From the NCBI GenBank assembly GCA_022616275.1, contig JAKEFB010000115.1, forward strand, positions 1-64,000: DNA of 64,000 nt, in the 5' to 3' direction. A model generated the notes under the pieces. The model saw only the letters and a list, made by a program, of their open reading frames with translations, had not been told where the DNA came from and did not search any database. Both the position numbers and the translations under genes were made by a program. Below are positions 22,738 through 61,103 of the stretch, piece by piece. This DNA is from Chloroflexota bacterium (GTDB lineage: Bacteria; Chloroflexota; Anaerolineae; Promineifilales; Promineifilaceae). Each line of letters starts with the position of its first letter. Position 1 is the stretch's first letter.

Positions 22738-22802
22738 AACAAGAGATTAGAGATTAGAGATTGGTCAATCTCCAATCTCTAATCTCCAATTGCCAATCTC
22801 CC
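22738..22802. repeat. Inverted word repeat, GAGATTAGAGATTGG family
   Basis: AGAGATTAGAGATTAGAG, a short centre, then CCAATCTCTAATCTCC and CCAATTGCCAATCTCC. Forms a long imperfect hairpin between the CBS and reductase genes. Related copies are at 36245 and 56519. Confidence 0.75.
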
Positions 22803-22822
22803 TCCATTGAAAGGAGCATTGC

Positions 22823-24226
22823 ATGTCGCAAGCAGGTACTCAATCAAATCCATTGCGGGTGGCCATCATTGGCGCAGGGCCGGCCGGCTTTTACGCGGTA
22901 GAGAGGCTCTTCAAGCAAAAAGACCTGACCGTCGAAGTGGATATGTATGATCGCCTGCCGACCCCTTATGGCCTGGTGCGAAATGGCGTGGCCCCCGACC
23001 ACCAGAAAATCAAGTCGGTGACGAAGGTGTTTGATCGCCTGGCAGCCCAGCCCCAGTTTCGCTTTTTCGGCTACGTGGAATTGGGCAAGGACATCACCGT
23101 GGCCGATTTACGCCGCCACTACCACCAAATCGTCTATACCACAGGGGCGCAAACCGACCGTTCTTTAAATATTCCTGGCATTGACCTGAAGGGTAGTCAC
23201 GCCGCCACCGAGTTTGTCGCCTGGTATAACGGCCACCCCGATTACCGCCATTATCAATTTGATCTGTCGCAGGAGCACGCGGTCGTGATCGGCGTGGGTA
23301 ACGTGGCTGTAGACGTGTGCCGTATCCTCTGCCGGACGCCGGAAGAGCTGGCCAGGACCGACATCGCCGGCTACGCCCTGGAGGCGTTGAGCCAGAGCCG
23401 GGTAAAGGTCGTCTACATGCTCGGCCGGCGCGGGCCGGCCCAGGCAGCCTACACCGCCCCGGAAGTAAAGGAGCTGGGCGAGCTGGCCGACGCCGACGTA
23501 ATCGTTTTGCCGGAGGAAGCGGAGTTGGACGAGCTGAGCCAGGCCTCGCTGGCCGACGGGGCCGACCGGGGCACGATGCGCCAGGTGGAATTGATCCAGG
23601 AATTCTCCCGGCGGCCGCCGGCCGGGAAATCGCGCCAGTTAATCTTGCGTTTCCTGGTTTCGCCGGTAGAGCTGATTGGGGACGAGAATGGACAGGTGAT
23701 CTGCCTGCGACTGGTGAAGAATGAGTTGTATGCGACAGAAGCCGGCTCGCTTCGCGCCCGGCCGACAGAGCAGTATGAGGAGATACCGGCCGGCCTGGTT
23801 TTCCGCTCCATTGGCTACCAGGGCGTGCCGCTGCCAGACGTACCCTTTAATGATAATTGGGGCGTCATTTTGAACGAGGGCGGCCGGGTCATTCACCCGG
23901 AAACCCGCCAGCCGGTGGTGGGCGAGTACGCCGCCGGCTGGATCAAGCGTGGCCCAACTGGAGTGATTGGAACGAACAAGCCTGACGCGGCCGAGACGGT
24001 GGAACTGATGTTGAAAGACCTGGCCAGCGGCCGGATTTTGAGCCCTGAATGCCCTGATGCCACGGCCGCCGAACAAATGGTCCGCAAACGGCAGCCTCAC
24101 TACTTTTCCTACGAAGATTGGCTTAAGCTGGACGAAATCGAGGTTGCCAGAGGGACCGAGCAGGGCCGGCCGCGAGTCAAACTTACCACTGTCGAGGAGA
24201 TGTTGGCCGCCGTAGGCAAGAAGTAG
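22823..24226 (+). CDS. Ferredoxin-NADP+ reductase, adrenodoxin-reductase (FprA) type
   Basis: A protein of 467 residues with a strong ribosome binding site (AAAGGAGC). FAD site IIGAGPAGFYAVERL near the N-terminus, RNGVAPDHQKIKSV (family hallmark), NADP site VVIGVGNVAVDVCRIL, and C-terminal GWIKRGPTGVIGTNKPDA contacting FAD. It moves electrons between NADP(H) and ferredoxin in the cytoplasm. No ferredoxin gene is adjacent. The double RNase H gene starts five bases after its stop. Confidence 0.95.
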   Translation: MSQAGTQSNPLRVAIIGAGPAGFYAVERLFKQKDLTVEVDMYDRLPTPYGLVRNGVAPDHQKIKSVTKVFDRLAAQPQFRFFGYVELGKDITVADLRRHYHQIVYTTGAQTDRSLNIPGIDLKGSHAATEFVAWYNGHPDYRHYQFDLSQEHAVVIGVGNVAVDVCRILCRTPEELARTDIAGYALEALSQSRVKVVYMLGRRGPAQAAYTAPEVKELGELADADVIVLPEEAELDELSQASLADGADRGTMRQVELIQEFSRRPPAGKSRQLILRFLVSPVELIGDENGQVICLRLVKNELYATEAGSLRARPTEQYEEIPAGLVFRSIGYQGVPLPDVPFNDNWGVILNEGGRVIHPETRQPVVGEYAAGWIKRGPTGVIGTNKPDAAETVELMLKDLASGRILSPECPDATAAEQMVRKRQPHYFSYEDWLKLDEIEVARGTEQGRPRVKLTTVEEMLAAVGKK

Positions 24227-24231
24227 ACAGC

Positions 24232-25119
24232 ATGAAAGTGGTGATTTACACCGATGGAGGGGCCGACCCCAATCCTGGCGTCGGTGGTTGGGCGGCCATT
24301 TTACAGGCCGATGGCCAGGAAAAAGTGCTGACCGGCCACGATCCCTGGACGACAAATAACCGCATGGAATTGCAGGCGGCGATAGCTGCCCTCCAGGCCC
24401 TGCGCCGGCCAGCCGAAGTGGAGTTCTATACCGATTCAGAATATTTGCGCCAGGGCATTACCGGGTGGATTGAGAAGTGGGCGGCTCGTAGTTGGGTGCA
24501 TAAAGATGGCCGGCCGGTGGCCAACGCCGACTTGTGGCGGCAACTGTGGCCGTTGACTAAACAGCACACCATTTACTGGCATTGGGTTCGGGGTCACACC
24601 GGAGATTCGCTCAACGAGCGGGTAGACCAGCTTGCCCGGCAGGCCCGGCTGGAAATTACGCCGGCGCCCGGGGTGGCGGTCGGGGCACCGCGACTCTACG
24701 TCCGCTCTTCCTGTCGCGGCAATCCCGGCCCTGGTGGCTGGGGCGCTGTTTTGGAGCAAGATGGCGAGACGGTCCAAACGAGCGGCAGCGATCCCCGGAC
24801 GACGAACAACCGGATGGAATTAACGGCCGTGATCGAGGGCTTGCGGCTGCTACCGTCGGGCAGCGCCGTGCAGGTTTTCACCACCTCGGACTACGTTTAC
24901 CAGGGAGCCACCCGCTGGATTCACGGCTGGCGACAGCGGGAATGGAAAAAACCAGACGGGCAACCGGTCAGCAACCAGGATTTGTGGCAGATGCTCGACC
25001 AGTTGATGGGCTTATATACCATTAGTTGGGTCAACGCCAAAGGGGAGGCAGGGCAGGAAACGCTTGCCCTCCATGAGGCGGCCACGCTGGCCTCGACGGC
25101 GACCGATTCCCTTGCCTGA
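24232..25119 (+). CDS. Tandem RNase HI fusion; second domain appears inactive
   Basis: A protein of 295 residues holding two RNase HI folds. Domain 1 (about 1-145) keeps the four acidic residues and His: YTDGGADPNPG, NNRMELQAA, YTDSEYL, GHTGDSLNERVDQLA. Domain 2 (about 152-290) follows the same template but loses most of them: VRSSCRGNPGPGG lacks the first Asp, FTTSDYVYQG lacks the third, and KGEAGQETLALHEAA lacks the His and last Asp; only the Glu in NNRMELTA remains. Expected activity is cleavage of RNA in RNA-DNA hybrids by domain 1, with domain 2 perhaps binding substrate. Likely co-transcribed with the reductase gene. Confidence 0.9.
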   Translation: MKVVIYTDGGADPNPGVGGWAAILQADGQEKVLTGHDPWTTNNRMELQAAIAALQALRRPAEVEFYTDSEYLRQGITGWIEKWAARSWVHKDGRPVANADLWRQLWPLTKQHTIYWHWVRGHTGDSLNERVDQLARQARLEITPAPGVAVGAPRLYVRSSCRGNPGPGGWGAVLEQDGETVQTSGSDPRTTNNRMELTAVIEGLRLLPSGSAVQVFTTSDYVYQGATRWIHGWRQREWKKPDGQPVSNQDLWQMLDQLMGLYTISWVNAKGEAGQETLALHEAATLASTATDSLA

Positions 25120-25212
25120 CTGTCTTTTTTTGGCCTTCTATCCGCCGCTAAAGATTGAAAATTTCAGTGAATAAACAGGTAATGGACAGGCGGACAACAG
25201 GCAAACTAGATG

Positions 25213-25440
25213 TCAGGAAGATTTTTCGTCGGCCTTGCGGACGAAGCGGCAGGTGGCGTGCAGGAAGCCAAAATCACCGGCCGGGGGCATCAATTCGTCT
25301 ACTTCAACGATCTTAAAAACCAGGCCGTCAAAGCTGACTTCGTCGCCAACGCGAGGCTCTTTGTCGGTGTTGATGATCGCCCCGGGGTGTTTGCCGCCCT
25401 CGACCACGTAACTAACCTTGTAATAAACTGCCTTACTCAT
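25213..25440 (-). CDS. Small conserved-looking protein, function unknown
   Basis: A protein of 75 residues, soluble and slightly acidic (KVSYVVEGGKHPGAIINTD; GDEVSFDGLVFKIVEVDEL), likely a small beta-rich fold. It has one Cys and no membrane segment or motif I recognise. It starts 21 bases after the cyclic-nucleotide-binding gene on the same strand and is probably in its operon. The composition and codon pattern look like a real gene. Confidence 0.6.
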   Translation of the reverse strand: MSKAVYYKVSYVVEGGKHPGAIINTDKEPRVGDEVSFDGLVFKIVEVDELMPPAGDFGFLHATCRFVRKADEKSS

Positions 25441-25461
25441 TCAATCTTTAAGACCCCTTGC

Positions 25462-25899
25462 CTACATTTGGGCCAGGTTGCGATGGCGTAATTTAAAGGC
25501 CAGGTCACTGGCCAGGTTGCGCATGAAAAAGTAACCAATCCTGAGATTAGAACGCGCCAGCTCTTCAAAATGTTTCTGATCCAACAGGTATAGCAGGCAT
25601 CCCTCACTAGTCGCGCGGACGGAGGCCGAACGGTAGCCCTGGTCTAACAGGGCCATTTCCCCGACTACCTGCCCTTTGCCCAGGACCACTAACACGCGTT
25701 CGTTGGCTAATCCTTCAATGAAGACCTCGGCCGATCCCTTGGCGATGATAAACATTTCGTTGCCAGTCGTGTTTTGCGCAACAATGATTTCCGCTGGGGC
25801 CACTTCTCTTGGCGTGCAAATAGAAGCCACTTGTTCCAGCTCTGACTGGTCAAGTCCGGCAAACAAATGCACTAATTTTAGCAATTCCCAATTTGCCAT
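25462..25899 (-). CDS. Cyclic nucleotide-binding domain protein
   Basis: A protein of 145 residues from ATG 25899, which has GGAGGAAAG in front; an in-frame ATG at 25959 has none. It is a single cNMP-binding fold: LFAGLDQSELEQVASIC, then VVGEMALLDQGYRSASVRA, the phosphate-binding cassette. No effector domain is fused. The cassette has the Arg-Ser-Ala-Ser shape of real cAMP/cGMP binders. It resembles the C-terminal part of the GNAT-CNBD gene 1.6 kb away. Possible -10 box TATACT at 25929-25924. Confidence 0.85.
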   Translation of the reverse strand: MANWELLKLVHLFAGLDQSELEQVASICTPREVAPAEIIVAQNTTGNEMFIIAKGSAEVFIEGLANERVLVVLGKGQVVGEMALLDQGYRSASVRATSEGCLLYLLDQKHFEELARSNLRIGYFFMRNLASDLAFKLRHRNLAQM

Positions 25900-25971
25900 T
25901 CTTTCCTCCGCCAACGCCAGTCTAGTATAACCCGGCCTCATCCTTTTGCCACTTCTCACTTCATTTTCACC

Positions 25972-26004
25972 AAACCCCGCAGATTTTCAAAACCTGCGCG
26001 GTTT
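25972..26004. repeat. Inverted repeat around AAACCTGCGCGGTTT
   Basis: AAACCCCGCAGATTTT and AAAACCTGCGCGGTTT form an imperfect hairpin just upstream of the tRNA promoter, possibly ending minus-strand or upstream transcription. Confidence 0.5.
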
Positions 26005-26012
26005 CACCTTCT

Positions 26013-26040
26013 TTGACTTTTGGGACCAAAGTGGTACAAT
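26013..26040 (+). promoter_or_regulatory. Promoter of tRNA-Leu
   Basis: TTGACT (26013-26018), 16 bases, TACAAT (26035-26040). Transcription would begin about nine bases before the mature tRNA. Confidence 0.65.
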
Positions 26041-26055
26041 GCATTTTCATAGCCC

Positions 26056-26139
<84 letters not shown>

Positions 26140-26148
26140 CCTGACGAC

Positions 26149-26183
26149 GGCCCGACCACAACCTGGTCCGGGCTGTTTTTTTT
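26149..26183 (+). terminator. Rho-independent terminator after tRNA-Leu
   Basis: GGCCCGACCA and TGGTCCGGGC pair with one bulge around a short loop, followed by a run of nine T (26175-26183). Confidence 0.75.
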
Positions 26184-26211
26184 GCTGGTAAAACGTCTCT
26201 ACAACCCCGGT

Positions 26212-27376: not shown

Positions 27377-27439
27377 AGTGCCTGGCACGGGGCAGAACCA
27401 CTCCAGATAATTAAGGGCCTTTGCCCCGTGCCAGGCACT
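27377..27439. repeat. 18-bp perfect inverted repeat, AGTGCCTGGCACGGGGCA
   Basis: Arms at 27377-27394 and 27422-27439 are exact reverse complements separated by 27 bases. Lies between two converging genes and probably ends transcription. Confidence 0.75.
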
Positions 27440-27447
27440 ATGTTGGG

Positions 27448-27480
27448 GTAATTGGGTAATTACCCAATTACTCAATTACT
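27448..27480. repeat. GTAATTGGGTAATTACCC palindrome
   Basis: A 24-bp perfect palindrome (27448-27471, GTAATTGGGTAA and TTACCCAATTAC) plus another CAATTAC unit. Supplies the last codons of the GNAT-CNBD gene on the minus strand. The same word occurs at 35208 and 38584. Confidence 0.8.
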
Positions 27481-29100
27481 TTCTTTATTGGCCGTCGGTG
27501 AATGGCTGAGGTAAAAGCGTTCGTCCAGGTCGGCCAATTTTTGCCCTAACGAAATGGCCATGTTGCGCATTACCTTAAGGCCGATACGGGGGTAGCGATT
27601 GACAAGATTTTCGAAATCGTGATATTTCAGGGCCGCCAGCTTGACATCGCTGGCCGCCACGGCCGTGGCCCCGTAGGCTTGCTGGGAGACCAGGGAGATC
27701 TCCCCCAGGAAGTCGCCGGCGTGTACGTGACCAACCAGTGTGCAGCCATCGGGGGCGTAGATGTCCATACTCCCGTTCATAACCATGTAAAAGGCGTCAC
27801 CTCGCTCGCCGGCCCTCAATACGACCCGGCCGGCCGGATGAGCAACCACCTGGCACAGCCCGGCGATCTTGGCTAATTCCCCTTCTTCCAATCCCTGAAA
27901 AATAGCCATGTGGTGGCTGGCCTCGTTGACGAACAACCCCAGGCGTTTTTCTTCAAAACCTTGCCGTACCAGTTCAAACAATTCCTGGCTCTCCTGGGTC
28001 AGTTGCACGTCGTCAATATCCAGGGGGACATATACTTTGGCCATCTTAATGGTGTCTAGCCGTTCTACTTCGTGGAAGACAAAGGACGGGCAATAAGCCA
28101 CCGGCACGAACCCCAGGTTACTGAGCGTGCGTTGGATATTGGGCCAATAGGCGCTGACGGTAATTTCCAGGTATTCGGCCTGGTATTTTTCGCGGGCCCG
28201 GGAATCCAGTGCCTTTAGCAGAAAGCCGGCTACGTCGTCGCGCAGGTCAATCAGCTCCAGTACCTTAATGCTGCGGCCGATAGTATCCACGGTGAAACCG
28301 ATAGCGCCGACAATTTTGCCATTTTCGCGGGCCACAATGTAATGAGAGTTGCGCGACTGCAACAAAAAGAGGCCGTAGGTCAGTTGCAGGTTGCCGAAAA
28401 CGTGGCGCCGCGATAACCGGCCGCGCTCAATGCGCAGCAGGGAGGGCAGCCCGGATTGGCTGAGTTCTTCGACCTCAAAGTCCGTGCCAATGGGATAGCC
28501 CTCGACGTCGTCCACAGCAATGAGGTCGTTTTCCAGCCCCAGGTTTTGCAGAGCCAACTGGCCCAGCAGAAACGCTTCCGGAATGACGCGGGGATTGTTG
28601 CGGCGCAGCTTTTGGGCCGGGCCAAAGAGCTTGGCAGTCAGCACTAGGCTTTCCCGGTTGTCCAGCAACACCTTTTGCGGCAGAAAGCCAATAGGCTGCA
28701 GGCCAAACTTGTGGGAAATGCGTTGGGCGTAGGTGTGGGCTGTCCGGCATTCGGCTAGGCCAAAGTGTAGCCGCTGCTCGGCAAATTCCAGCCGGGCCCG
28801 CATCAGGGCCGAACCTACGCCCAGTCCCCGGTAGCCGGGGTCTACAGCCAACCGGCCGAACTCGCCACACAGGTCGGCGTAAGCCCCAACCTCAAAATAG
28901 ACAGATGCGGTCCCGACGATGTGGTCGTCTGCTTCGGCCAGGAGTGATAGATAACTATCCTGGTAAATACTCCGTTTTAACCACTCGTCGCTATAAAACT
29001 CCTTGTAAGGGTAATTTTCGCCATATGACCGGTAGAACAGATTGCGAATTCCCTCTAGATCGGCCTCCGTAACGGGTCTTACGCGAATCGAAGACGCCAT
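27472..29100 (-). CDS. GNAT acetyltransferase-like protein fused to a cyclic nucleotide-binding domain
   Basis: A protein of 542 residues; of three nearby ATGs, the one at 29100 is best spaced from AAGGAGG. Residues about 5-160 are a GNAT domain with the acetyl-CoA loop DPGYRGLGVGSALM. Residues about 170-360 look like a second, degenerate GNAT (YIVARENGKIVGAIGFTVD; YLEITVSAYWPNIQRTLSNL). Residues about 400-530 are a cNMP-binding domain (GDFLGEISLVSQQAYGATAV). The phosphate cassette lacks the Arg of strong cAMP binders. Mycobacterial cAMP-gated protein acetyltransferases have the same two parts in reverse order; by analogy this may be a ligand-gated acetyltransferase. Confidence 0.85.
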   Translation of the reverse strand: MASSIRVRPVTEADLEGIRNLFYRSYGENYPYKEFYSDEWLKRSIYQDSYLSLLAEADDHIVGTASVYFEVGAYADLCGEFGRLAVDPGYRGLGVGSALMRARLEFAEQRLHFGLAECRTAHTYAQRISHKFGLQPIGFLPQKVLLDNRESLVLTAKLFGPAQKLRRNNPRVIPEAFLLGQLALQNLGLENDLIAVDDVEGYPIGTDFEVEELSQSGLPSLLRIERGRLSRRHVFGNLQLTYGLFLLQSRNSHYIVARENGKIVGAIGFTVDTIGRSIKVLELIDLRDDVAGFLLKALDSRAREKYQAEYLEITVSAYWPNIQRTLSNLGFVPVAYCPSFVFHEVERLDTIKMAKVYVPLDIDDVQLTQESQELFELVRQGFEEKRLGLFVNEASHHMAIFQGLEEGELAKIAGLCQVVAHPAGRVVLRAGERGDAFYMVMNGSMDIYAPDGCTLVGHVHAGDFLGEISLVSQQAYGATAVAASDVKLAALKYHDFENLVNRYPRIGLKVMRNMAISLGQKLADLDERFYLSHSPTANKESN

Positions 29101-29164: not shown

Positions 29165-29280
29165 CCTACCCACCTGCTACTTGCAAACTTCCATACTCGC
29201 ACACTCGCACACTTGCACACTTGCATACTCGCATACTCGCACACTTGCCTACCTGCCACCTGCCCACTCGCCCACTGCCT
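29165..29280. repeat. Direct-repeat tract of ACTCGCAC / ACTTGCAC units
   Basis: About ten units of eight to ten bases (ACTCGCAC, ACTTGCAC, ATACTCGC, CCACTCGC) in one orientation, without the inverted half seen elsewhere. It is not a CRISPR array: units are too short and have no spacers. It sits directly upstream of the kinase -10 box. Confidence 0.7.
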
Positions 29281-33935: not shown

Positions 33936-33970
33936 AAACCTTTCCAAAAGATATTTTTCTCTGGCCAACT

Positions 33971-33997
33971 GTCGTCTATCGTCCATCGTCTGTCGTC
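33971..33997. repeat. Tandem GTCGTC word repeat, second copy
   Basis: GTCGTCTATCGTCCATCGTC then TGTCGTC; the first 14 bases are identical to part of the 9708 copy. Lies between the kinase stop and the ABC promoter. Confidence 0.7.
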
Positions 33998-35207: not shown

Positions 35208-35276
35208 CTGATAATTCAGTAATTAGGTAATTGGGTAATTACCCAAGACCAATTACTGAATTACCCAACTACCCCT
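35208..35276. repeat. GTAATTGGGTAATTACCC word repeat, imperfect copy
   Basis: CAGTAATTAGGTAATTGGG, the centre TAATTACCC, then CCAATTACTGAATTACCC. Imperfect arms; same family as 27448 and 38584. Confidence 0.75.
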
Positions 35277-35335: not shown

Positions 35336-36259
35336 ATGGAAGATCGAAAAGTCTGGAGCGCGTTCCTATTGTTAGCCCTTACCTGGGGAACCTCCTTCTT
35401 GTTCATTAAAGTGGCCTTGCGGACCTTGCAGCCCATCACCTTGGTGGCGCTGCGGCTGCTGGTCGGTTGGCTAGGGTTGATGGTCATTGCTCGCTGGCAG
35501 GGGCTGACCCTGCCCCGGGAACGGCGGTTGTGGAAACATCTGGCATTGATGGGGTTGCTGAATACGGCCGTGCCCTTTGTCCTGATCACCTGGGCCGAGT
35601 CGGGGCCAAAAGGGGTAGACAGCGCCGTGGCTTCGGTGTTAAACAGCACGGTTCCCCTTTTTAGCCTGGTCATTGCCGGCTGGATCTTGCGGGCCGAGCC
35701 AACCACAGCCGGGCGGGTGGTTGGGTTGTTGGTGGGCTTCGCCGGGGTACTCTTGCTCTTTAGCCGCAACCTGACCGGCGAGTGGGGTGGGCTGGCCCCG
35801 CAACTGGCCGTAGTGGCGGCTGCCCTGTGCTACGCCCTTTCTTCCAGCTACGCCCGCCGCTACCTGGTGGGCGTCAAGCCGGTCGTTGTCTCCGCCGGGC
35901 AGTTGTTGGTCGCCACCGGGGTGGCCTGGCTGGCCGCCTTTCTGGGGGAAGATTTCGCTCAGCAGAGCCTGACGGTAGCCAGCGCCGGGGCCATTCTCTG
36001 GCTGGGGTTACTCGGTTCCTGCCTGGCTTACATTCTCTACTTTTACATCTTGCAGCAATGGGGAGCAACTCGCACCACCCTGGTTACTTACATCTTGCCG
36101 GTGGTAGGCGTATCGGCCGGGGCGCTGTTCCTGGGCGAACAGGTAGACTGGCGACTGGTAGTCGGCGGCTTGCTCATCTTGAGTGGGGTTGGCGCCGTGA
36201 ATTGGCGGCCGCGCCGGGTCCCTCTGTCCGAACCGGTTAAGGCAGAGATTGGAGATTAG
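35336..36259 (+). CDS. EamA/DMT-family transporter
   Basis: A protein of 307 residues from ATG 35336 (GGAGCAGGT in front). About ten membrane helices in two EamA repeats: LALTWGTSFLFIKVALRTL at the start, GPKGVDSAVASVLNSTVPLF in the middle, and YILPVVGVSAGALFLGEQVDW near the end. Likely a metabolite or amino-acid exporter. A perfect terminator hairpin sits directly before its ribosome binding site, which suggests control by attenuation from upstream. Its last codons (EIGD) are part of the GAGATTGG repeat shared with the converging MFS gene. Confidence 0.88.
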   Translation: MEDRKVWSAFLLLALTWGTSFLFIKVALRTLQPITLVALRLLVGWLGLMVIARWQGLTLPRERRLWKHLALMGLLNTAVPFVLITWAESGPKGVDSAVASVLNSTVPLFSLVIAGWILRAEPTTAGRVVGLLVGFAGVLLLFSRNLTGEWGGLAPQLAVVAAALCYALSSSYARRYLVGVKPVVVSAGQLLVATGVAWLAAFLGEDFAQQSLTVASAGAILWLGLLGSCLAYILYFYILQQWGATRTTLVTYILPVVGVSAGALFLGEQVDWRLVVGGLLILSGVGAVNWRPRRVPLSEPVKAEIGD

Positions 36260-36313
36260 AGATTGTGAGCAACCCCTGGTTGCCAATCTCCTAATCTCCA
36301 ACCTCTAATCTCC
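36245..36313. repeat. Inverted word repeat, GAGATTAG family, between converging genes
   Basis: GAGATTGGAGATTAGAGATT, the core TGAGCAACCCCTGGTTGCC, then AATCTCCTAATCTCC and CTCTAATCTCC. It encodes the C-terminal codons and stops of both EamA (36259) and MFS (36291). Its core matches the copy at 56519. Confidence 0.8.
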
Positions 36314-38232: not shown

Positions 38233-38589
38233 ATGCCGGAAGCCAATTACCAGGTCGGTGAGACCTTTCACGTTCAATTTGTCTGGCGGCTGCCGGAGGG
38301 CGACTTTTTGCGGGCTATTTTCACGGCCGAGGTGCTGCATCGCGACTTTGTTTCCGACAAGTACGTCGTCCGCCTGGCCGAATTTGTCGCCGGCCGGCAG
38401 GAGGCGGCCGATGGCACGATGCGGCCGGAAGCAGAGCTGTCTCGCGACTACTGGGCCATGGTCGGCCGTCTGCCCGGCCGGAAAATCTCCCTCGCCTTTG
38501 AAGCCGGCGACGGCCGGCCGTTGTGGCTCCGCCTGGCAACCCTGACCGGAGAGCACAACTTCTTCTCCCGCCTCAACAGGCCGGAGTAA
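38233..38589 (+). CDS. Hypothetical protein downstream of CGNR regulator
   Basis: A protein of 118 residues, soluble, predicted beta-rich (VGETFHVQFVWRLPEGDFL; KISLAFEAGDGRPLWLRLAT). No Cys, membrane helix or motif I recognise. Ten bases separate it from the regulator, so they are co-transcribed. The stop codon and last codon lie in the 38584 palindrome. Confidence 0.65.
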   Translation: MPEANYQVGETFHVQFVWRLPEGDFLRAIFTAEVLHRDFVSDKYVVRLAEFVAGRQEAADGTMRPEAELSRDYWAMVGRLPGRKISLAFEAGDGRPLWLRLATLTGEHNFFSRLNRPE

Positions 38590-38635
38590 TTGAGTAATTG
38601 GGTAATTACCCAATTACTCAATTACTCAATTACTT
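38584..38635. repeat. 44-bp perfect palindrome of the GTAATTGGG word
   Basis: GAGTAATTGAGTAATTGGG plus TAA and its exact reverse complement span 38584-38627, with one more CAATTAC unit after. It contains the TAA of the upstream gene and abuts the TAA of the converging membrane protein gene; bidirectional terminator. Confidence 0.85.
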
Positions 38636-40162: not shown

Positions 40163-40178
40163 AGTCCCTCCTTAAACA

Positions 40179-40278
40179 GTGATGAGCAGTGAGCGATGAG
40201 CGATGAGTGATACACTAAGAGTTGCTCATTGCTTGCGATTGGCTTTGCCAATCGTCACTCATTGCTCATTGCTTATTA
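40179..40278. repeat. GAGCAATGAG / CTCATTGCTC inverted word repeat
   Basis: GATGAGCAGTGAGCGATGAG units, then GCTCATTGC, a perfect inner hairpin CGATTGGC-TTT-GCCAATCG (40236-40254), and CTCATTGCTCATTGC. It encodes the last residues (SNEQ) of the oxidase. The same word is at 60081. Confidence 0.8.
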
Positions 40279-44083: not shown

Positions 44084-44118
44084 GGAAACAGAAATATTGG
44101 CGGTTGCGATTTGCCAAT

Positions 44119-44146
44119 TTGCCAATTAGCGTAGCTTTGTTACAAT
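44119..44146 (+). promoter_or_regulatory. Promoter of the histidine operon
   Basis: TTGCCA (44119-44124), 16 bases, TACAAT (44141-44146). Transcription would start about 44153, a few bases before the leader peptide. Confidence 0.6.
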
Positions 44147-44166
44147 TCCGTTCCAATATGAACAGT

Positions 44167-44250
44167 ATGACACGCACGTTTGCCCACCATCATCATGGCT
44201 TTAACCAACCGCCTGGTCGGGCAGAACGGCTTGCGTGTCCGCAGTCATGA
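44167..44250 (+). CDS. hisL: His operon leader peptide
   Basis: A 27-residue frame from ATG 44167 (or 30 residues from ATG 44158). It starts MTRTFAHHHHGFNQPP, with four consecutive His codons (CAC CAT CAT CAT, 44185-44196). The Escherichia coli hisL also begins MTR and carries a His run. It lies between the promoter and a terminator hairpin in front of hisG, so ribosome stalling at the His codons when charged tRNA-His is scarce probably allows read-through. No clear ribosome binding site is present and the message may be near-leaderless. The alternative pairing that would prevent the terminator is not evident to me. Confidence 0.75.
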   Translation: MTRTFAHHHHGFNQPPGRAERLACPQS

Positions 44251-44287
44251 TGTAACTCGATTCATTTCCTAACTGCGACAGACAAAA

Positions 44288-44320
44288 GCGCTCCCTGGTC
44301 CAGGGCGCGCTTTTTATTTT
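44288..44320 (+). terminator. Attenuator terminator before hisG
   Basis: GCGCTCCCTG, loop GTC, CAGGGCGCGC (one mismatch in ten pairs), then TTTTTATTTT. It sits 40 bases before hisG and 38 after the leader-peptide stop. An upstream hairpin can form between TGTCCGCAGT (44236-44245) and ACTGCGACA (44272-44280). Confidence 0.8.
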
Positions 44321-44341
44321 AGATTTTAGATTTTAGATTTT
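44313..44341. repeat. ATTTTAG direct word repeat
   Basis: Three to four direct copies of ATTTTAG, running out of the attenuator T-run toward hisG. An inverted arrangement of the same word is at 55121. Confidence 0.65.
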
Positions 44342-44359
44342 GGATGGAGTGAGGAAGAG

Positions 44360-45370: not shown

Positions 45371-45489
45371 ACAGCTTTTCATGATGAAAGCTGACTGGTC
45401 TTTAATCACGAATGTCGCGAATGGACGAATGTCGCGAATGCTTTATATTTTTTATTCGCGTCATTCGTTTTATTCGTGTCATTCGCGTT
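45371..45489. repeat. CGCGAATG inverted word repeat between hisG and hisD
   Basis: A small hairpin (CAGCTTT..AAAGCTG, 45372-45393), then CGAATGTCGCGAATGG and CGAATGTCGCGAATG facing ATTCGCGTCATTCG and ATTCGTGTCATTCGCG. A long stem inside the operon. The same word is at 47946 and 53026. Confidence 0.75.
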
Positions 45490-47945: not shown

Positions 47946-48046
47946 TGAAAAATCGCGAATAGCGCGAATAGGCGAATGACGCCAATGGTTTTTCTCGAAA
48001 ATAAAAAAATTCGCGCCATTGGTGCATTCGCGTTATTCGCGTTTTC
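47946..48046. repeat. CGCGAATAG inverted word repeat between hisC and hisB
   Basis: CGCGAATAGCGCGAATAGGC and CGAATGACGCCAATGG face CGCGCCATTGG, then CATTCGCG and TTATTCGCG. A strong stem inside the operon, ending just before the hisB ribosome binding site. Confidence 0.75.
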
Positions 48047-50782: not shown

Positions 50783-51100
50783 ATGGCATTAAAATTTAAT
50801 AGGAGTGGTTTGATCCCGGCCGTGGTCCAGGACGCGGCGACGAGAGAAGTGTTGATGGTAGGCTGGATGAACGGTGAGGCGCTGCGGTTGACCCAGGAAA
50901 CGAGCCAGGCCCATTTCTGGAGCCGCAGCCGGGGCGAGCTGTGGCGTAAGGGAGCGACGTCGGGCAACACCCTGGCCGTTCAGGAAATTTTTGTGGATTG
51001 TGACAGGGATGCCCTGCTGCTGCGGGTGACGCCGGCCGGGCCAACCTGCCACACAGGGGAGCAGTCGTGTTTTTATCGCCTGCTTGAGGAGTTGGAGTAA
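50783..51100 (+). CDS. hisI: Phosphoribosyl-AMP cyclohydrolase
   Basis: A protein of 105 residues from ATG 50783. Opens the adenine ring of PR-AMP; zinc and Mg2+ enzyme. Motifs: [48 protein letters not shown], and zinc Cys residues in [12 protein letters not shown]. Stand-alone, with HisE as a separate gene downstream. Its last residues (LEELE) blend into the GAGTTAGAG repeat. Confidence 0.95.
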
Positions 51101-51153
51101 GAGTTAGAGGATTGAGTGAATAAACTCTAACTCTAACTCAAAGCTCTAACTCT
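51099..51153. repeat. GAGTTAGAG / CTCTAACTC inverted word repeat
   Basis: AAGAGTTAGAGG, then AACTCTAACTCTAACTC and GCTCTAACTC. Hairpin between hisI and hisE, ending directly before the hisE GGAGG. Related to 56386. Confidence 0.7.
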
Positions 51154-51165
51154 TTGGAGGAAGAG

Positions 51166-53025: not shown

Positions 53026-53085
53026 TTCACAATATTCGCGCCATTCGCCCGGTGTAATACGCTCATTCGCAGCCATTCGCGATTT
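53026..53085. repeat. CATTCGCG word repeat
   Basis: ATTCGCGCCATTCGC, CATTCGCAGCCATTCGCG: direct copies of the word found as inverted repeats in the histidine operon at 45371 and 47946. Confidence 0.6.
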
Positions 53086-55118: not shown

Positions 55119-55120
55119 AT

Positions 55121-55194
55121 AGAATTTTAGATTGTGGATTGTGGATTTTAGATTGGCCTTGAATCCAAAATCTAAAATCAAAAATCCAAAATTG
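55121..55194. repeat. GATTTTAGATTG / AATCTAAAATCC inverted word repeat
   Basis: TTTTAGATTGTGGATTGTGG then ATTTTAGATTGG, centre CCTTG, AATCCAAAATCTAAAATC and AAAAATCCAAAATT. A long AT-rich hairpin before the PLP enzyme gene; related to the direct repeat at 44313. Confidence 0.75.
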
Positions 55195-55205: not shown

Positions 55206-56405
55206 ATGAGTAAGGATAAGCAACCTTCCTGGGGCCAGCAGACGGCGGCCATTCACGCCGGGGACGCAGCTAACCCGTCTACCGCCGTGGTCTCGCCGAT
55301 TTACCAGAGCGCCACGTTTCGTTTTGAAGAGCCGGCCGACATTGCCACGGCGATGGTGGCCACGGCCCATCCCCAGTTTTACGGCCGCTACGCCACGCCC
55401 AATACCAAGCAGGTTGAGGCGACTGTGGCCCGGCTGGAGGGAGGCGAGGCGGCGCTGGCTGCAGCTTCCGGCATGGCCGCCATTTCCCTGGCGCTGCTTA
55501 GCCATCTGCAGGCGGGCGACCACGTGGTCGCCCAAACGACCCTTTACCCGACGACCTACAACTTAATCGCCCACAAACTGCCGACCCTCGGCATTGAGTC
55601 CACCCTGGTGGAGCAGACCGACCTGGCGGCTTTCGCCGCCGCCATCCGGCCCAATACCCGGCTGGTCTACGTGGAAAGCCCGGCCAACCCCGTTCTGTCC
55701 CTGACCGACCTGGCGGCCGTGGCCCAACTGGCCCAGACCCACCACCTGGTCGCCATAGCCGACAACACCTTTGCCACGCCGTACAACCAGCGGCCGCTGA
55801 GCCTGGGCTTTGACGTGGTCGTCCACAGCGCCACCAAGTACCTGGCTGGCCATTCCGACGTGGTCGCCGGGGTGGTGGTCAGCAGCGCGGCGCGCGTTGA
55901 GCAGATGTGGCGCAATCATGTCATGCTGGGAGCCGTGTTACACCCCTTCGAAGCCTGGCTGGTGGAGCGAGGCTTGAAGACCTTTGGCCTGCGCCTGGCC
56001 CGGCACAATGCCAACGCCCAGGCCGTGGCCGAATTCCTGCAGGGACACCCGGCCGTACGTCGGGTCTATTACCCCGGCCTGCCCGGCCACCCCCAACACG
56101 AGCTGGCCCGGCAGCAGATGCCCGGCGGCTTTGGCGGCATGGTCTCTTTTGACTTGCGGGGCGGCCGGGCGGCTGGCTACCATCTCTTAAAGCATCTCAA
56201 GCTGATCTGCCAGGCAGTCAGCCTGGGCGGCGTCCACTCCCTGATTACCCACCCGGCCAGCACCATTTCGGCCGTGCAAACAGACGAGGAGATTGCCGCC
56301 AGCGGCGTCTTGCCGGGGCTGGTCCGCCTGTCGGTGGGCCTGGAAGAAGCAGCCGACCTGGTGGCCGACCTGGCTCAAGCGTTGGAAGAGTTAGAGTTAG
56401 AGTAG
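55206..56405 (+). CDS. Cys/Met-metabolism PLP enzyme (cystathionine gamma-synthase/lyase family)
   Basis: A protein of 399 residues from ATG 55206 (GGAG before it). Fold type I PLP enzyme: FYGRYATPNTKQVEATVARL, AAASGMAAISLALL, VYVESPANPVLSLTDL, IADNTFATPYNQRPL, and the PLP Lys in HSATKYLAGHSDVVAG. It could be an O-acetylhomoserine sulfhydrylase, cystathionine gamma-synthase or methionine gamma-lyase; the motifs do not decide. The C-terminus ELELE is encoded by the GAGTTAGAG repeat that follows. Confidence 0.9.
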   Translation: MSKDKQPSWGQQTAAIHAGDAANPSTAVVSPIYQSATFRFEEPADIATAMVATAHPQFYGRYATPNTKQVEATVARLEGGEAALAAASGMAAISLALLSHLQAGDHVVAQTTLYPTTYNLIAHKLPTLGIESTLVEQTDLAAFAAAIRPNTRLVYVESPANPVLSLTDLAAVAQLAQTHHLVAIADNTFATPYNQRPLSLGFDVVVHSATKYLAGHSDVVAGVVVSSAARVEQMWRNHVMLGAVLHPFEAWLVERGLKTFGLRLARHNANAQAVAEFLQGHPAVRRVYYPGLPGHPQHELARQQMPGGFGGMVSFDLRGGRAAGYHLLKHLKLICQAVSLGGVHSLITHPASTISAVQTDEEIAASGVLPGLVRLSVGLEEAADLVADLAQALEELELE

Positions 56406-56443
56406 GGAGTTAGAGTTCTGGAACTCTAACTCAAAACTCTAAC
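56386..56443. repeat. GAGTTAGAG / CTCTAACTC inverted word repeat overlapping a gene end
   Basis: GAAGAGTTAGAGTTAGAG, then a perfect hairpin GTTAGAGTTC-TG-GAACTCTAAC (56409-56430) and CTCTAACTT. Encodes the last seven codons of the PLP enzyme. Confidence 0.8.
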
Positions 56444-56518
56444 TTAGGGTTGCCAAGCGCGCTAACAATTAGTAGTATATAGGTACGTGCAACCTCATTC
56501 ATTGCTACAACGTATGGT

Positions 56519-56591
56519 GTAGAGATTCGAGATTCGAGATTGGAGATTATGAGCAGCCCAATGGTTGTCAATCTCTAATCTCCAATCTCCC
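56519..56591. repeat. Inverted word repeat, GAGATTCGAGATTGG family
   Basis: GAGATTCGAGATTCGAGATT, GGAGATTATGAGCAGCCCAA, TGGTTGTCAATCTC, then TAATCTCCAATCTCCC. The core (TGAGCA, CCC, TGGTTG, CAATCTC) is nearly that of 36245, so the two are true copies rather than independent simple repeats. Confidence 0.8.
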
Positions 56592-56616
56592 TTGATAAAA
56601 AGGAGCGTGGGCCAAA

Positions 56617-56982: not shown

Positions 56983-56991
56983 GAGCCAGGG

Positions 56992-59900
56992 ATGACTCAT
57001 TGGGCCGCGCCAAGCCAGCGGGCTGACCACCTAGCCGGTCTCTATGCCATCAGCCAGATTCTGAGCAGCACCCTGGACCTGGATGAACTTTTGGCGGCCC
57101 TGGTAACGGAAACGGCCCGGCTGTTGGCGGCGGCCGAGTGTACCGTTTCGCTGCTGGAGGGGAACGCCCTACACGTTTTTCAATCCTCACAAGCGCAATC
57201 GCCGGGCCAATTGCACCAACCACAATTGCCGGGCCAATTGCGCCCGCCATCACCACAACCAGCGAGGGGATACGACCTGAATGCTTACCCGGCTACCTGG
57301 CGGGCCATTCGGGAGCGCCAACCATTTTTCATAACCATTGGTGAGCCGGCCGTGCTGGCCGAATTTGGCTACCAGAGCCTGGTGCTGGCCCCCATTGTTT
57401 CCGGGGGGACAGCTATCGGCATCCTGGCGGCCTTCAGCGAGGCGGCCGGTTACTTTGACGAAGGGGCGGCCCAGTTGTTGCAGGCGGTTGCCAACCAGGC
57501 GGCGGCCGCTATTCGTAACGCCCGCCTGTACCAGGAAACGCAGCGCCAGGCCGAAGAACTGGACCTGCTCTACCGGGTCAGCCAGGCGATCAGCAGCGAG
57601 CTATCGGAGCGGGCCACCGTCCACCAGATTGCCCAGCAGGTCACACGGGCCTTTGGGGCGAGTGGCTGCGCTGTTTCTCGCTATGACCGGCAGCGAGAGT
57701 GCCTGGTCACGTTGCTGGATTACGAACCTGACGCGCCGCCGGCGAAGCTGGCCCTGGAGGGGACCGTTTATTTTCTGGACGATTATCCCCTGACGTGCCG
57801 GATCATGGCCGAAGGCCGGCCGGTGGTGGTCCAGCGCAATGACCCGGATACGGACCCGGCCGAGCGGGCGCTGCTGGATGAGACCGGTGTACAAACGGTG
57901 CTCGTGGCTCCACTGGTGGTGCGCGGCAACGCCATTGGCCTGTTGGAGATTTACCAGAGCGCCGCCCCTCGCCACTATAGCCCAGCCGAGCTTCGGCTGG
58001 CCGAGCGGCTGAGCGTAGACATTGCCGCCAGCCTGGACAACGCTCGCCTGTTCGACCAGACCCAGCAGCAGGCGCAACAGATGGCCATGCTCAGCGCCAT
58101 CCAGCACGCCATTATGTCGGCGCTGACGCCGGAGGCCATTCTGCGGGAAATTGTTAACCAGATCCAGTTTTTCCTGGAAGTAAATAGCTGTTCCGTTTTC
58201 CTTTACAATGAACGGACCAACCGGTTGGACCTGGCGCTGACGGCCGATCCGGACCTGGCCGGCCAGACGATTTCCATCCCGGTAGACAAGGGAATTGCCG
58301 GCCAGGCCATGCGCACCCGGCGCTCAATCCTGGTCAATGATACGGCCAGGAGCGCCGAGCACCAGGGTGTACTGCCTGGCTCAAAGCTGACCATTCGCTC
58401 CTTGCTGTGCGCCCCCCTCATTTTCCAGGACCGGGTGTTGGGCGTTATTCAGGCCTTGAGCGGCCTGCCGGAGGCTTTTTCGGAGTTGCACCTGACGCTG
58501 CTGGATTCGGTGGCCGCGGCCATGGCCGTGGCCCTGGAAAACGCCCGGCTGCACGCCGGCGTGCTCCGCCGGGTGGCTGAGCTAGACGCCCTATCCGGCT
58601 CCGGCTGGGCGGTGGCCGGGACCGGCGAACTGACCGAAATTTTACAGGCCATCGTCGCCGGGGCCAGCCGCGTGCCGGGCGTGGATTGGGCCAATATTCT
58701 CCTCTACTCGGCCGAAGAGAATCGCTTTTTCCAGCACATTTCCAGCCGGGGCAACGGCGCGCCGCCAGGGGACTCTCGCTCCAACGTCCGCAGCAGCGGC
58801 ATCAGCGCCCGAATCCTGCAGGAGAAAGCGCCCCTGCTGGTCAATGACGCGGCCGACGATCCCCGTGTCAGTCCCCGGGTGGTGGAGTACATGGGCATCC
58901 GCTCGTTCATTGGCGTGCCGGTTGTCATTGGCAACCTGCCCGTGGGCGTGCTATACGCTAACTCTTACCAGCCGCACGTGTTTGACGACGGGCACGTGTC
59001 GGTTATTGGCAGCCTGGCCACCCAGGCGGCCGTGGCCATTGAGCGGGCCCGCCTGCAGGACAGCATTCGCCAGAATGAACGCCAGTTGCAGGCCATCCTC
59101 AACAGCACGGCCGACGCCGTTATCGCCACCGGCGCCGACGGCCGGGTGACCCTCTTTAACCGGGCGGCCGAGGAATTGTTTCACCAGGCGGCGGCCCAGA
59201 CGGTGGGCCGGCCGGCGGCCGAGTTGTTTGCCGGGACCGACCTGGCCCGGACCCTGGCCGAAGCCGGCCAGGCGCCGGAAGTGGCCAACTTTGAGATGAA
59301 GCTGCCTGACGGCCGGACGTTTCTGGCCGCCTTGTCTATGGTCGCCGACGATGCCGGCCGTGGCCTGGGCCAGGTGGCGGTGCTGCACGACATTACTTAT
59401 CTGAAAGAGCTGGACCAGATGAAAAATGAGTTCGTGGCCACAGTGTCCCACGACCTCAAGAACCCCATCACCATCATTCAGGGCTTCGCCAAGCTGCTGC
59501 CGGCGCTGGGCCCGGTGAATACCGACCAGTTGTCTATGTTGCGGCGTATTGAGGATGCCAGCAACCGGATGTTGAGATTGGTGACAAATTTGCTAGATCT
59601 GGGCAAAATTGAGGCTGGTATGTCGGTCAATAAAAAGGGCTGCGACCTGGCGGAAATTACCCGCGAGGCGGCGATGCAGCTTGAGGAGCAGGCCCGGGCC
59701 AAGAACGTTTCCCTGGAGGTGGCAGCCGAGGCGGACACGCCCCTGCACGGCGACCCGGAGCGCCTGCAGCAGGTGGCCTACAACCTGATCCACAACGCCA
59801 TCAAGTACACCCCGGCCGCCGGCCGGGTCCAGGTGCGGGTGGTACGTAACGGGGCCGCCGCCAGCCTGGAAGTGTGCGATACCGGCTACGGCATCCCGGC

Positions 59901-60120
59901 CGCCGATTTGCCTTACATCTTTGACAAATTCTACCGGGTATCCAGCGACGAACTCCGGGAAATCGAAGGCACTGGCCTGGGGCTATCCATCGTCAAAGCC
60001 ATTGTGGACCAGCACCAGGGCCAAATTAAGGTCGAAAGCGAGCCAGGCCAGGGGACGACGTTTTTGGTGAAGTTGCCAACAGCAATGAGCAATGAGTTGA
60101 AAGCAATGAGTAATGAGTAG
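56992..60120 (+). CDS. Multi-GAF PAS sensor histidine kinase
   Basis: A soluble protein of 1042 residues. Four GAF domains (about 10-185, 195-355, 365-520 and 530-690), PAS (about 698-810; ADAVIATGADGRVTLFNRA), HisKA with SHDLKNPITIIQGFAKLL (about 822-840), and HATPase with NLIHNAIKYTPAAG, DTGYGIPAADLPYIFDKFYR and GTGLGLSIVKAIVDQH. GAF1 is interrupted near residues 68-92 by a Pro/Gln-rich insert made of a 27-base tandem repeat. The C-terminal residues AMSNELKAMSNE are encoded by the GAGCAATGAG repeat. Orphan kinase. Confidence 0.93.
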   Translation: MTHWAAPSQRADHLAGLYAISQILSSTLDLDELLAALVTETARLLAAAECTVSLLEGNALHVFQSSQAQSPGQLHQPQLPGQLRPPSPQPARGYDLNAYPATWRAIRERQPFFITIGEPAVLAEFGYQSLVLAPIVSGGTAIGILAAFSEAAGYFDEGAAQLLQAVANQAAAAIRNARLYQETQRQAEELDLLYRVSQAISSELSERATVHQIAQQVTRAFGASGCAVSRYDRQRECLVTLLDYEPDAPPAKLALEGTVYFLDDYPLTCRIMAEGRPVVVQRNDPDTDPAERALLDETGVQTVLVAPLVVRGNAIGLLEIYQSAAPRHYSPAELRLAERLSVDIAASLDNARLFDQTQQQAQQMAMLSAIQHAIMSALTPEAILREIVNQIQFFLEVNSCSVFLYNERTNRLDLALTADPDLAGQTISIPVDKGIAGQAMRTRRSILVNDTARSAEHQGVLPGSKLTIRSLLCAPLIFQDRVLGVIQALSGLPEAFSELHLTLLDSVAAAMAVALENARLHAGVLRRVAELDALSGSGWAVAGTGELTEILQAIVAGASRVPGVDWANILLYSAEENRFFQHISSRGNGAPPGDSRSNVRSSGISARILQEKAPLLVNDAADDPRVSPRVVEYMGIRSFIGVPVVIGNLPVGVLYANSYQPHVFDDGHVSVIGSLATQAAVAIERARLQDSIRQNERQLQAILNSTADAVIATGADGRVTLFNRAAEELFHQAAAQTVGRPAAELFAGTDLARTLAEAGQAPEVANFEMKLPDGRTFLAALSMVADDAGRGLGQVAVLHDITYLKELDQMKNEFVATVSHDLKNPITIIQGFAKLLPALGPVNTDQLSMLRRIEDASNRMLRLVTNLLDLGKIEAGMSVNKKGCDLAEITREAAMQLEEQARAKNVSLEVAAEADTPLHGDPERLQQVAYNLIHNAIKYTPAAGRVQVRVVRNGAAASLEVCDTGYGIPAADLPYIFDKFYRVSSDELREIEGTGLGLSIVKAIVDQHQGQIKVESEPGQGTTFLVKLPTAMSNELKAMSNE
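57196..57241 (+). repeat. 27-base tandem repeat inside the multi-GAF kinase gene
   Basis: The 19-base core CAATCGCCGGGCCAATTGC (57196-57214) is repeated with one change at 57223-57241. In frame it gives two copies of a 9-residue unit, QSPGQLHQP and QLPGQLRPP, inside GAF1. Confidence 0.75.
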
Positions 60121-60180
60121 TCAGTAGTGAAGAGGGGAAGTCACTTATTGCTCATCGCTCATTGCTCATTGCTCATCACT
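60081..60180. repeat. GAGCAATGAG / CTCATTGCTC inverted word repeat overlapping a gene end
   Basis: AGCAATGAGCAATGAG and AAGCAATGAGTAATGAGTAG, a spacer, then TTGCTCATCGCTCATTGC and TCATTGCTCATC. Encodes the last twelve codons of the multi-GAF kinase and ends ten bases before the enoyl-CoA hydratase ribosome binding site. Confidence 0.85.
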
Positions 60181-60194
60181 GTAAGGAGTTTGCG

Positions 60195-60980
60195 ATGAGT
60201 TACGAGACGATTTTGTACGACGCGGCCGATGGGATTGCCAAAATTACGCTGAACCGGCCGGAGACGCTGAACGCCTTTAACAACAAGATGACCGAAGAGA
60301 CGATAGACGCCTTTAAGCAAGCCGGCCGGGATAAAGCGGTGCGCTGCATCGTCATTACCGGCAGCGGCCGGGCCTTTTCCTCAGGGCAGGACTTGAAGGC
60401 CGTCCAGGACCGGGGCGAGGATTTCTCTATTGGCGACCACCTGCGCAGCGGCTATAACCGGCTCATTCTGCAGATGGTCCAATTGGAGAAGCCAATCGTC
60501 GGGGCGATTAACGGCGTCGCCGCCGGGGCTGGTTGCGGCGTGGCCCTGGCCTGTGACCTGCGAATCGCCTCTCACAAGGCCTGCTTTATGCAGGCCTTCA
60601 GCCGGGTGGGCCTCATCCCCGACAGCGGCACGACCTGGTTGCTGACGCGTCTCATCGGTTATTCGCGGGCCTACCAGATGGCCGTTACTGCCGACAGAAT
60701 TCCGGCCGATAAAGCCCTGGAGTGGGGACTGGTGAACGTCGTGGCACCGGAGGAGCAGTTGATGGAAATAGTTATGGCCTGGGCCGGGCCGCTCTCCACC
60801 GGCCCGACGCTGGCCTATGGCCTGACCAAGCGGGCCATGATCAAAGCCATGAACATGACCCTGGAAGAGGCCTTGGCCTATGAAGCGCAACTCCAGGAAA
60901 TCGCCGGCCGCAGCCACGACCGGATGGAAGGGGTGCAGGCGTTTCTGGAGAAGCGTGAACCACAGTTCAAAGGCGAGTAA
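60195..60980 (+). CDS. Enoyl-CoA hydratase/isomerase family protein
   Basis: A protein of 261 residues from ATG 60195 (TAAGGAG); an upstream in-frame ATG lies inside repeat DNA. Crotonase fold: ITLNRPETLNAFNNKM, oxyanion-hole segments SSGQDLKAVQ and INGVAAGAGCGVALACDL, and VGLIPDSGTTWLLTRLIG, where Asp (PDSG) matches PaaG/2,3-dehydroadipyl-CoA-type enzymes. Likely hydration or isomerisation of an enoyl-CoA. The 3-hydroxyacyl-CoA dehydrogenase gene follows, so the two act in sequence in acyl-CoA or phenylacetate breakdown. Confidence 0.92.
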   Translation: MSYETILYDAADGIAKITLNRPETLNAFNNKMTEETIDAFKQAGRDKAVRCIVITGSGRAFSSGQDLKAVQDRGEDFSIGDHLRSGYNRLILQMVQLEKPIVGAINGVAAGAGCGVALACDLRIASHKACFMQAFSRVGLIPDSGTTWLLTRLIGYSRAYQMAVTADRIPADKALEWGLVNVVAPEEQLMEIVMAWAGPLSTGPTLAYGLTKRAMIKAMNMTLEEALAYEAQLQEIAGRSHDRMEGVQAFLEKREPQFKGE

Positions 60981-60984
60981 GTGT

Positions 60985-61103
60985 CATGGTGTCAGGTGTC
61001 GGAGTTGGTCCAGCCAACTCTTGTCACGTGTCACGTGCCATGTACCGTGTCGTACTTGACACTTGACACTTGGCACTTGATACTGAAACACCTGACACAT
61101 GGA
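60985..61103. repeat. GTGTCAGGTGTC / TTGACACTTGACAC inverted word repeat
   Basis: GTCATGGTGTCAGGTGTC and TGTCACGTGTCACGTGCC face ACTTGACACTTGACACTTGG and ACCTGACACATGG; a small GTTGG..CCAAC stem lies between (61014-61018 region). Fills the whole spacer between hydratase and dehydrogenase genes. Confidence 0.75.

Follow-up and report, generated by a model that had tools for sequence, protein, structure and literature searches.

Heptamer repeats have long been noted in bacteria (Mazel 1990 for the cyanobacteria, as cited in PMC2670836). In Xanthomonas, tandem 7 nt units of the GGGAATC type are mostly intergenic, lie on average 28 nt from the 5' neighbouring gene, and vary in repeat length between related species; in sets of 186 and 183 such patterns, two convergent (inverted) sites are recorded in 70 and 75 cases (Rehm et al. 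2015, PMC4692102). According to the same paper, the GGGGA(C/T)T repeat of Nostoc forms inverted pairs in only a few cases (PMC4692102). The short tandemly repeated repetitive (STRR) sequences of filamentous cyanobacteria usually have 7 nt tandem units, are intergenic, and in some cases form hairpins, as they do in the hupS–hupL gap and upstream of hoxW (PMC2670836). In the Beggiatoaceae, TAACTGA forms intergenic 7 nt tandem arrays that are patchy across species (MacGregor 2015, PMC4679880, in which work on heptanucleotide excess and slippage is cited). The subject here is a set of intergenic palindromes, the arms of which are tandem arrays of one short word, in a stretch of 64,000 nucleotides from a Chloroflexota bacterium (C11:1-64000, the window), in the rest of its 8.53 Mb, 309-contig genome (G000), and in related genomes. 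We know of no accepted account of the origin of bacterial heptamer repeats. Elhai et al. in 2008 reportedly described very small dispersed repeats in Nostoc, often inside heptamer arrays.

The Chloroflexota elements, found in 240 of 831 gaps, share with the Xanthomonas repeats (PMC4692102) the units of about 7 nt, the intergenic position, and the many inverted pairs, and with the STRR sequences, some of which fold as hairpins, the 7 nt tandem repeats in intergenic DNA (PMC2670836). An earlier reading of the window, made from the sequence alone, knew of no named family that fits; the published inverted heptamer pairs near gene ends in Xanthomonas and the cyanobacterial STRR hairpins tell in part against this. 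However, the Xanthomonas account describes one word family, while the Chloroflexota elements use many words and differ in word at 15 of 30 multi-species sites, 11 of them clear by eye; they are not built on one G-rich word kept at most orthologous sites. TAACTGA is likewise described as a single word, in 169 direct sets and one indirect, mostly just 5' of start codons (PMC4679880). Repetitive extragenic palindromic (REP) sequences and bacterial interspersed mosaic elements (BIMEs) are similar in being extragenic palindromes 3' of genes, in many copies and, in some genomes, of several types (Di Nocera et al. 2013, PMC3733652). Borg elements have tandem repeat regions that formed recently and evolve rapidly; these resemble the Chloroflexota arrays, but are direct repeats on archaeal extrachromosomal elements and are said to arise independently (PMC9879509). 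A search of the open-access literature found no report of such elements in Chloroflexota, nor of word exchange at orthologous gaps. Inverted tandem-heptamer repeats are already known; the large vocabulary and the different words at conserved junctions appear to be new.

We put at about one in two the probability that these sites are dispersed non-coding palindromic repeats, with arms that are tandem arrays of a 7–9 nt word, which arrive palindromic by copying, decay, and are replaced. New elements would arrive already palindromic, copied from other loci either by transposition-like insertion or by template switching in repair or replication. Slippage would later shorten and lengthen their arrays, and elements of another word would take the place of old ones that are lost. 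Their accumulation at gene ends may come about because words that contain a stop codon and have a period not divisible by three would do little damage there.

That a short word recurs in tandem and in inverted form between genes, as the sequence-only reading had proposed, is clear from the counts. In 464 kb of G000, made up of the window and 400 kb of contigs bearing word matches, a palindrome with a tandem array is present in 57 of 251 gaps and in one of 251 coding segments of matched length, while 10 dinucleotide shuffles of each gap gave a mean of 0.0 (palindrome score of at least 11.5, tandem array score of at least 9). The gaps were 25–400 nt long and free of N, the gene calls came from a crude, purpose-made gene caller, and the score thresholds were fixed after inspection of the data. 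About 0.79 Mb of G000 was sampled, the part beyond 0.464 Mb serving only for comparisons of the GAGATT core and of CGCGAATG copies; as contigs of G000 and of the related genus g23 were selected through word matches, or through similarity to such contigs, the rates are not genome-wide estimates. The 15-base word GAGATTAGAGATTGG does occur 182 times genome-wide (86 + 96), against 2 (1 + 1) for its reversal. These shuffles and genome-wide counts exclude a chance origin, and word frequencies equal to those of composition-matched shuffles, which the earlier reading had named as a refutation, are far from what is seen. An assembly artefact is excluded too, since several genomes that were assembled separately have elements at matching positions.

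The commonest unit period is 7 nt and the units are mostly 7–8 nt, with periods of 6 (6 arrays), 7 (44), 8 (25), 9 (8), 10 (5), 11 (1), and 12 (1) among arrays scoring at least 9.5. There are 62 distinct best-unit strings in 96 arrays of G000, 55 in 87 of G061, 40 in 62 of G063, and 47 in 81 of G022, so that each genome sample has 40–62, many of them variants of each other. Unrelated words nevertheless occur together in G000, where GAGATTG, GAGTAATT, GAATGACGC, GGTTATT, GTCAAGT, GACGACG, GAGCAAT, and GATTTTA are all present, and a de novo 14-mer search, made without the earlier list of words, recovered several of the listed word families. Of 288 arrays scoring at least 11, 210 are in a gap with a palindrome scoring at least 11, and 174 overlap that palindrome by at least half of the array length.

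Word sets vary across the family. The word GAGATTAGAGATTGG is present in 17 of 35 same-family relatives and in 1 of 24 genomes outside the family, and 18 of the 53 genomes of the family, among them G000, have GAGTAATTGGGTAATTG with at most one mismatch. Counts of the latter are uneven within a genus: five species of g23 have 105–521 while G060 has none, and three genomes of g11 have 175, 27, and 1. Genomes without words of these two types can carry others in a similar architecture (AATTACGAATTAGG and GAATGAC in G024, GGTGATG in G005), and G061 has GTGATGC in addition. Elements are scarce in G060 (1 of 48 gaps). Around hisD in other genomes, where 56 of 80 loci were used after those under 8 kb had been dropped, 17 of 371 gaps passed, several of them not clean. 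In G014 there is a long direct array of about 17 units of the heptamer GTGAATG without an inverted arm (L176 2881-3010).

The elements are placed close to the ends of genes. The 831 gaps examined for position (251 of G000 and 580 of g23; thresholds of 11 for the palindrome and 8.5 for the tandem array) contain 240 with elements, 62 in G000 and 178 in g23. In co-directional gaps, elements lie a median of 3 nt from the stop codon in G000 and of 0 nt in g23, with 31/47 and 112/144 elements, respectively, no more than 10 nt from the stop; the combined 143/191 compares with 107 expected under uniform placement within the gaps. The element frequently provides the stop codon of the upstream gene. Divergent gaps are poorer in elements (17/114) than others (223/717; p 3e-4).

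There is also a marked polarity. In 196 elements the 5' arm has more G than C, with the reverse in 33 (51:6 in G000, 145:27 in g23), and this holds for gaps flanked by genes in the orders >> (82:13), << (77:13), >< (24:5), and <> (13:2). As a palindrome reads alike on both strands, the element begins G-rich from either strand. Palindromes without words have ratios of 17:17 in G000 and 57:33 in g23. All three frames of the 5' arm contain stops in 84 of the 240 elements, against 15 of 240 if the arms are swapped.

The comparison of orthologous gaps, named as a check by the earlier reading, revealed both filled and empty alleles and different words in the same gap. It covers 85 clusters from five species of g23, in which the ortholog flanks reach to within 60 nt of the gap. 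An element is present in at least one species in 45 of the clusters and in at least two in 30. Among 352 species pairs, which are not independent within a cluster, neither species has an element in 158, only one in 93, both have the same word in 69, and both have different words in 32. An earlier, smaller comparison under another similarity rule, which put the gaps of clusters 81 and 84 among the same-word cases, gave 46, 26, 15, and 15 among 102 pairs. Different words were scored by script in 15 of the 30 multi-species clusters. By eye, 11 of these are clear (clusters 6, 7, 12, 17, 18, 19, 22, 57, 61, 79, and 81), two are doubtful, and two (14 and 32) were discarded as different-word cases. 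The doubtful clusters are 80, with the related words CGTGATG and CGTAATC/CGTGAAC, and 84, where a chimeric array in one species also contains the word of the other. In the 13 retained clusters, the flanking gene ends are 82–100% identical to those of the reference species of the cluster.

In cluster 6, CGTGAAA/CGTGATG is found in G022, G035, and G063, with GGTTGCA/GGTGGCA in G061 and G062. In cluster 7, a GGTAATC-like word is common to four species; the one exception is G035, with GCAGTGA, and a replacement is the simplest explanation. The same two words are found in cluster 19, GGTAATC in G022 against GCAGTGA in G035, between flanks that are 94 and 100% identical. In cluster 17, the four species have two clean word palindromes, one mixed element, and one tandem array without an inverted arm. 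The number of units varies among orthologs with the same word. Clusters 14 and 34 include species with a gap of 2 nt, alongside others with an element and a gene that ends at a stop codon derived from the word; in cluster 2, one species has no element. That related species often have different words in the same gap suggests copying and replacement of the hairpins, and not conservation of an exact sequence. Palindromes of the type GACCTGACAGGTTTT..AAAACCTGTCAGGTC occupy gaps where the ortholog has a word palindrome (as at G022 C3:74972-75012 and in further g23 gaps). One gap contains, although not in every species, a repeat of about 130 bp (L164 14295-14446), of which there are many copies at about 80% identity in g23 genomes.

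Dispersed copies are clearest for the CGCGAATG element at 47950, which has four matches (contigs C185, C38, C60, and C268) of 80–83% identity. All four have the unit order of that element and an A/T-rich loop, and their flanks are unrelated. The CGCGAATG elements at 45409 and in L036 align over the identical unit order with more differences. Similar copies with unrelated flanks, a trait of miniature inverted-repeat transposable elements, were found for the CGCGAATG element only. Among the 29 sampled GAGATT palindromes, 10 share a core loop similar to GCAACC-N-GGTTGC, as judged by eye. Chimeric arrays, in which two words are joined through common letters, are present at L044 8684, L047 1516, and L034 16136. 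One core, ACTTCGTCCTGA..GGAC..AGTCCGAAG, is found in arrays of two words, GATTTTA and GAGATTG (L031 2966-3117, L034 16136-16330), as if a small element had been inserted into word arrays.

Viral sequences do not appear to be the origin of the elements: a 15-mer scan matched at least 120 viral stretches, nearly all with a single match among the matches listed, which were taken for probable chance matches. A 23-mer scan found five viral stretches, of which four show one identical direct array (two on each strand) and L407, with 60% GC, a palindrome-like array. Two queries of plasmid sequences gave no match. Loss of SbcCD as the reason for the survival of the palindromes was also discarded, since elements are present in genomes with and without a match to SbcD, which was found in 7 of 10 genomes, the low-load G060 included, with no match in G035, G005, or G014, and no relation is visible.

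The sequence-only reading left open both a copying process and a shared role as terminator or in RNA stability. Copying is supported by the recurrent words, the dispersed copies, and the differences between orthologs. It is unlikely, although it is the strongest of the rivals, that the elements are instead functional RNA hairpins, such as 3'-end stabilizers, pause sites, or terminators, selected for their structure, in which case any word would serve and words would be exchangeable. Such a role would fit the strong predicted RNA folds, the location just 3' of stops with the poorer divergent gaps, and the palindromes without words found in some of these orthologous gaps. Selection on an RNA hairpin should, however, favour G.U over A.C, and in co-directional gaps the arm mismatches on the transcribed strand are G.T and A.C in equal measure (48:48 in G000, 146:155 in g23; 194:203 in total), so that no upkeep of paired RNA is visible. 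Changes to the arms are mainly one-sided, with 217 one-sided and 34 two-sided cells in the 69 same-word pairs, 13 of the 34, from four clusters, keeping the pairing. The mean mismatch between the arms of an element is 13%, against 10% between orthologs, and is the smaller of the two in 22 of the 69 pairs. It would seem, then, that the two arms start out equal and diverge afterwards, which counts against compensatory selection as well as continuous correction templated by the hairpin, and in favour of palindromic birth followed by decay. Concerted evolution of the arms, first suggested by one case in G022, was overturned by these counts, and RNA structure under selection is disfavoured by the lack of wobble bias and the few two-sided changes. 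A run of at least six T in the next 10 nt follows 4/47 elements in G000 and 9/144 in g23, and this total of 13/191 is not above that for palindromes without words (3/22 and 5/73, in total 8/95), so intrinsic terminators are rejected. In addition, one probable his operon contains three elements, and complete termination within it would do harm; many arms run across the stop codon and ought to be melted by a ribosome that terminates at that point; and 93 ortholog pairs have an element in one species only.

Neutral simple-sequence repeats, with local slippage making the heptamer arrays and hairpin-mediated template switching the palindromes, without any copying between loci, would account for the predominance of periods 7 and 8, the varying unit number among orthologs, and the chimeric arrays. 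This is improbable to a greater degree than the RNA role, as local generation leaves unexplained both the one word at dozens of places in one genome and the dispersed copies with a common unit order or loop, and the few two-sided changes indicate that template switching does not seem to keep the arms equal later. Least probable of all, and very unlikely, are miniature elements of the REP/BIME type mobilized by a RAYT, the transposase associated with REP, or by another hairpin-recognizing Y1 (HUH) transposase. Palindromic, extragenic elements 3' of genes in many copies would be expected of these, and Y1_Tnp matches were found in all 10 genomes searched. Yet the tags expected at the base of a REP hairpin are depleted (GTAG at 13/480 ends against 39.7 in shuffles, CGTC at 4/480 against 8.7), no link to a RAYT is visible in the match counts, and arms made of tandem words are foreign to the description of REP in PMC3733652. 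Nor do the Y1_Tnp matches, 1–6 per genome and present in the low-load G060, track the element load.

This last observation is one of several that weigh against palindromes arriving by copying and being replaced. Ortholog pairs with elements in both species keep the same word in 69 of 101 cases. With same-word pairs left out, different-word pairs number 32 of 283, against 21.8 expected by hand arithmetic if elements fell independently; this excess is modest, and some of the exchanges may therefore be no replacements but two independent gains in an empty gap. Some two-sided arm changes do occur (G022 against G035). The common core loop is lacking in 19 of the 29 GAGATT palindromes, which gives copying of the whole element no support for that word. 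Target-site duplications are not in clear excess, with direct repeats in the flanks, at approximate boundaries, in 12 of 174 cases for k = 5 against 8.9 permuted, and in 3 against 2.0 (k = 6), 1 against 0.3 (k = 7), and 1 against 0.1 (k = 8). Finally, the supply of stop codons does not explain the polarity of the elements and was ruled out as its cause, since the G-first order stays (70:14) where stops bring no advantage. A broader proposal, rather doubtful as it stands, is that an active genome-wide process propagates the architecture and not the sequence; it would place palindromes with the G-rich arm first, from a species-specific vocabulary of 7–9 nt words, at gene ends, overwriting old words over the divergence of species, supplying new stops, and separating packed genes.

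Within the window, 17 of 36 gaps of 25–400 nt pass, 14 with a palindrome and a tandem array and three with a tandem array only, although one of the 14 (gap 44084-44359) has an ordinary hairpin and a separate array; the 'more than twenty' junctions of the sequence-only reading were an overcount. Of its 18 listed sites, the 14 at 22738, 27448, 35208, 36245, 38584, 40179, 45371, 47946, 51099, 55121, 56386, 56519, 60081, and 60985 do have the word in tandem and inverted. Those at 9708, 33971, and 44313 lack the inverted arm, and the one at 53026 has only scattered copies below the thresholds. All 14 palindromes fold better as RNA than every one of 200 shuffles, and an Rfam scan of the window found a tRNA and no other family.

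Palindromes of GAGATTR are present at 22743..22797, with a 2 nt loop and directly 3' of the stop codon at 22737, and in a convergent gap at 36245..36305, with a core loop similar to GCAACC-N3-GGTTGC. Those of GGTAATTG are at 27446..27480, in a convergent gap where the element provides the stop of the minus-strand gene 27472-29100, and at 35212..35263, where a separate ordinary terminator-like hairpin follows. The first of these adjoins a palindrome without words, AGTGCCTGGCACGGGGC...GCCCCGTGCCAGGCACT (27377-27439), a similar sequence to which is found in L043 3010-3275. The GAGTAATTG palindrome at 38584..38634, with a fold z of -11.9, is near-perfect from end to end and overlaps the upstream gene's stop. 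A GAGCRAT palindrome with a nested hairpin is at 40178..40273, a GATTTTR palindrome at 55123..55193, a GAGCAAT palindrome overlapping the 3' end of the upstream gene at 60102..60176, and a GTGTCAR palindrome with an unrelated hairpin inside it at 60985..61101. One word per site is mostly the case, as had been claimed, with chimeric arrays elsewhere in the genome as exceptions, and also gap 56406-56616, which has palindromes of two words: GAGTTA at 56395..56444, overlapping the 3' end of the upstream gene, and GAGATTC/GAGATTG with a core-like loop at 56522..56589. Tandem arrays without an inverted arm are those of GTCGTCC at 9710..9737 and of the GTCGTCC type at 33969..33997. An octamer array of the GCANACTC/GCANACTT type, with about 12 units, is present at 29179..29276 and was missed earlier, and the scattered ATTCGCG copies are at 53032..53081 (coordinates counted by hand). 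At 62864-62929, a palindrome of AACCTCCCGGAGGTTG seems to belong to another family of dispersed palindromes that lack tandem words, since the 464 kb sample has 11 occurrences of its 14-mer.

The histidine genes of the window are in the order hisG-D-C-B-H-A-F-I-E (gene names by Pfam), which suggests a single operon. As the sequence-only reading had stated, there are sites inside it: CGCGAATG palindromes at 45409..45485, between hisG and hisD, and at 47950..48045, between hisC and hisB, and a GAGTTA palindrome at 51099..51154, between hisI and hisE. A GATTTTA tandem array (44316..44345) is upstream of hisG and 3' of an unrelated, ordinary hairpin. The nearest HisD sequences among named genomes are those of 'Chloroflexota bacterium M_MetaBat.120' (77%) and 'Ardenticatenales bacterium CSMAG_412' (74%).

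With many words in one genome and several comparable related species, the origin, spread, and replacement of such repeats become directly testable, and a single gap may be filled in as many as four ways among four species. In these bacteria, non-coding repeats alter stop codons and the ends of genes at many junctions, including those inside the histidine gene cluster.

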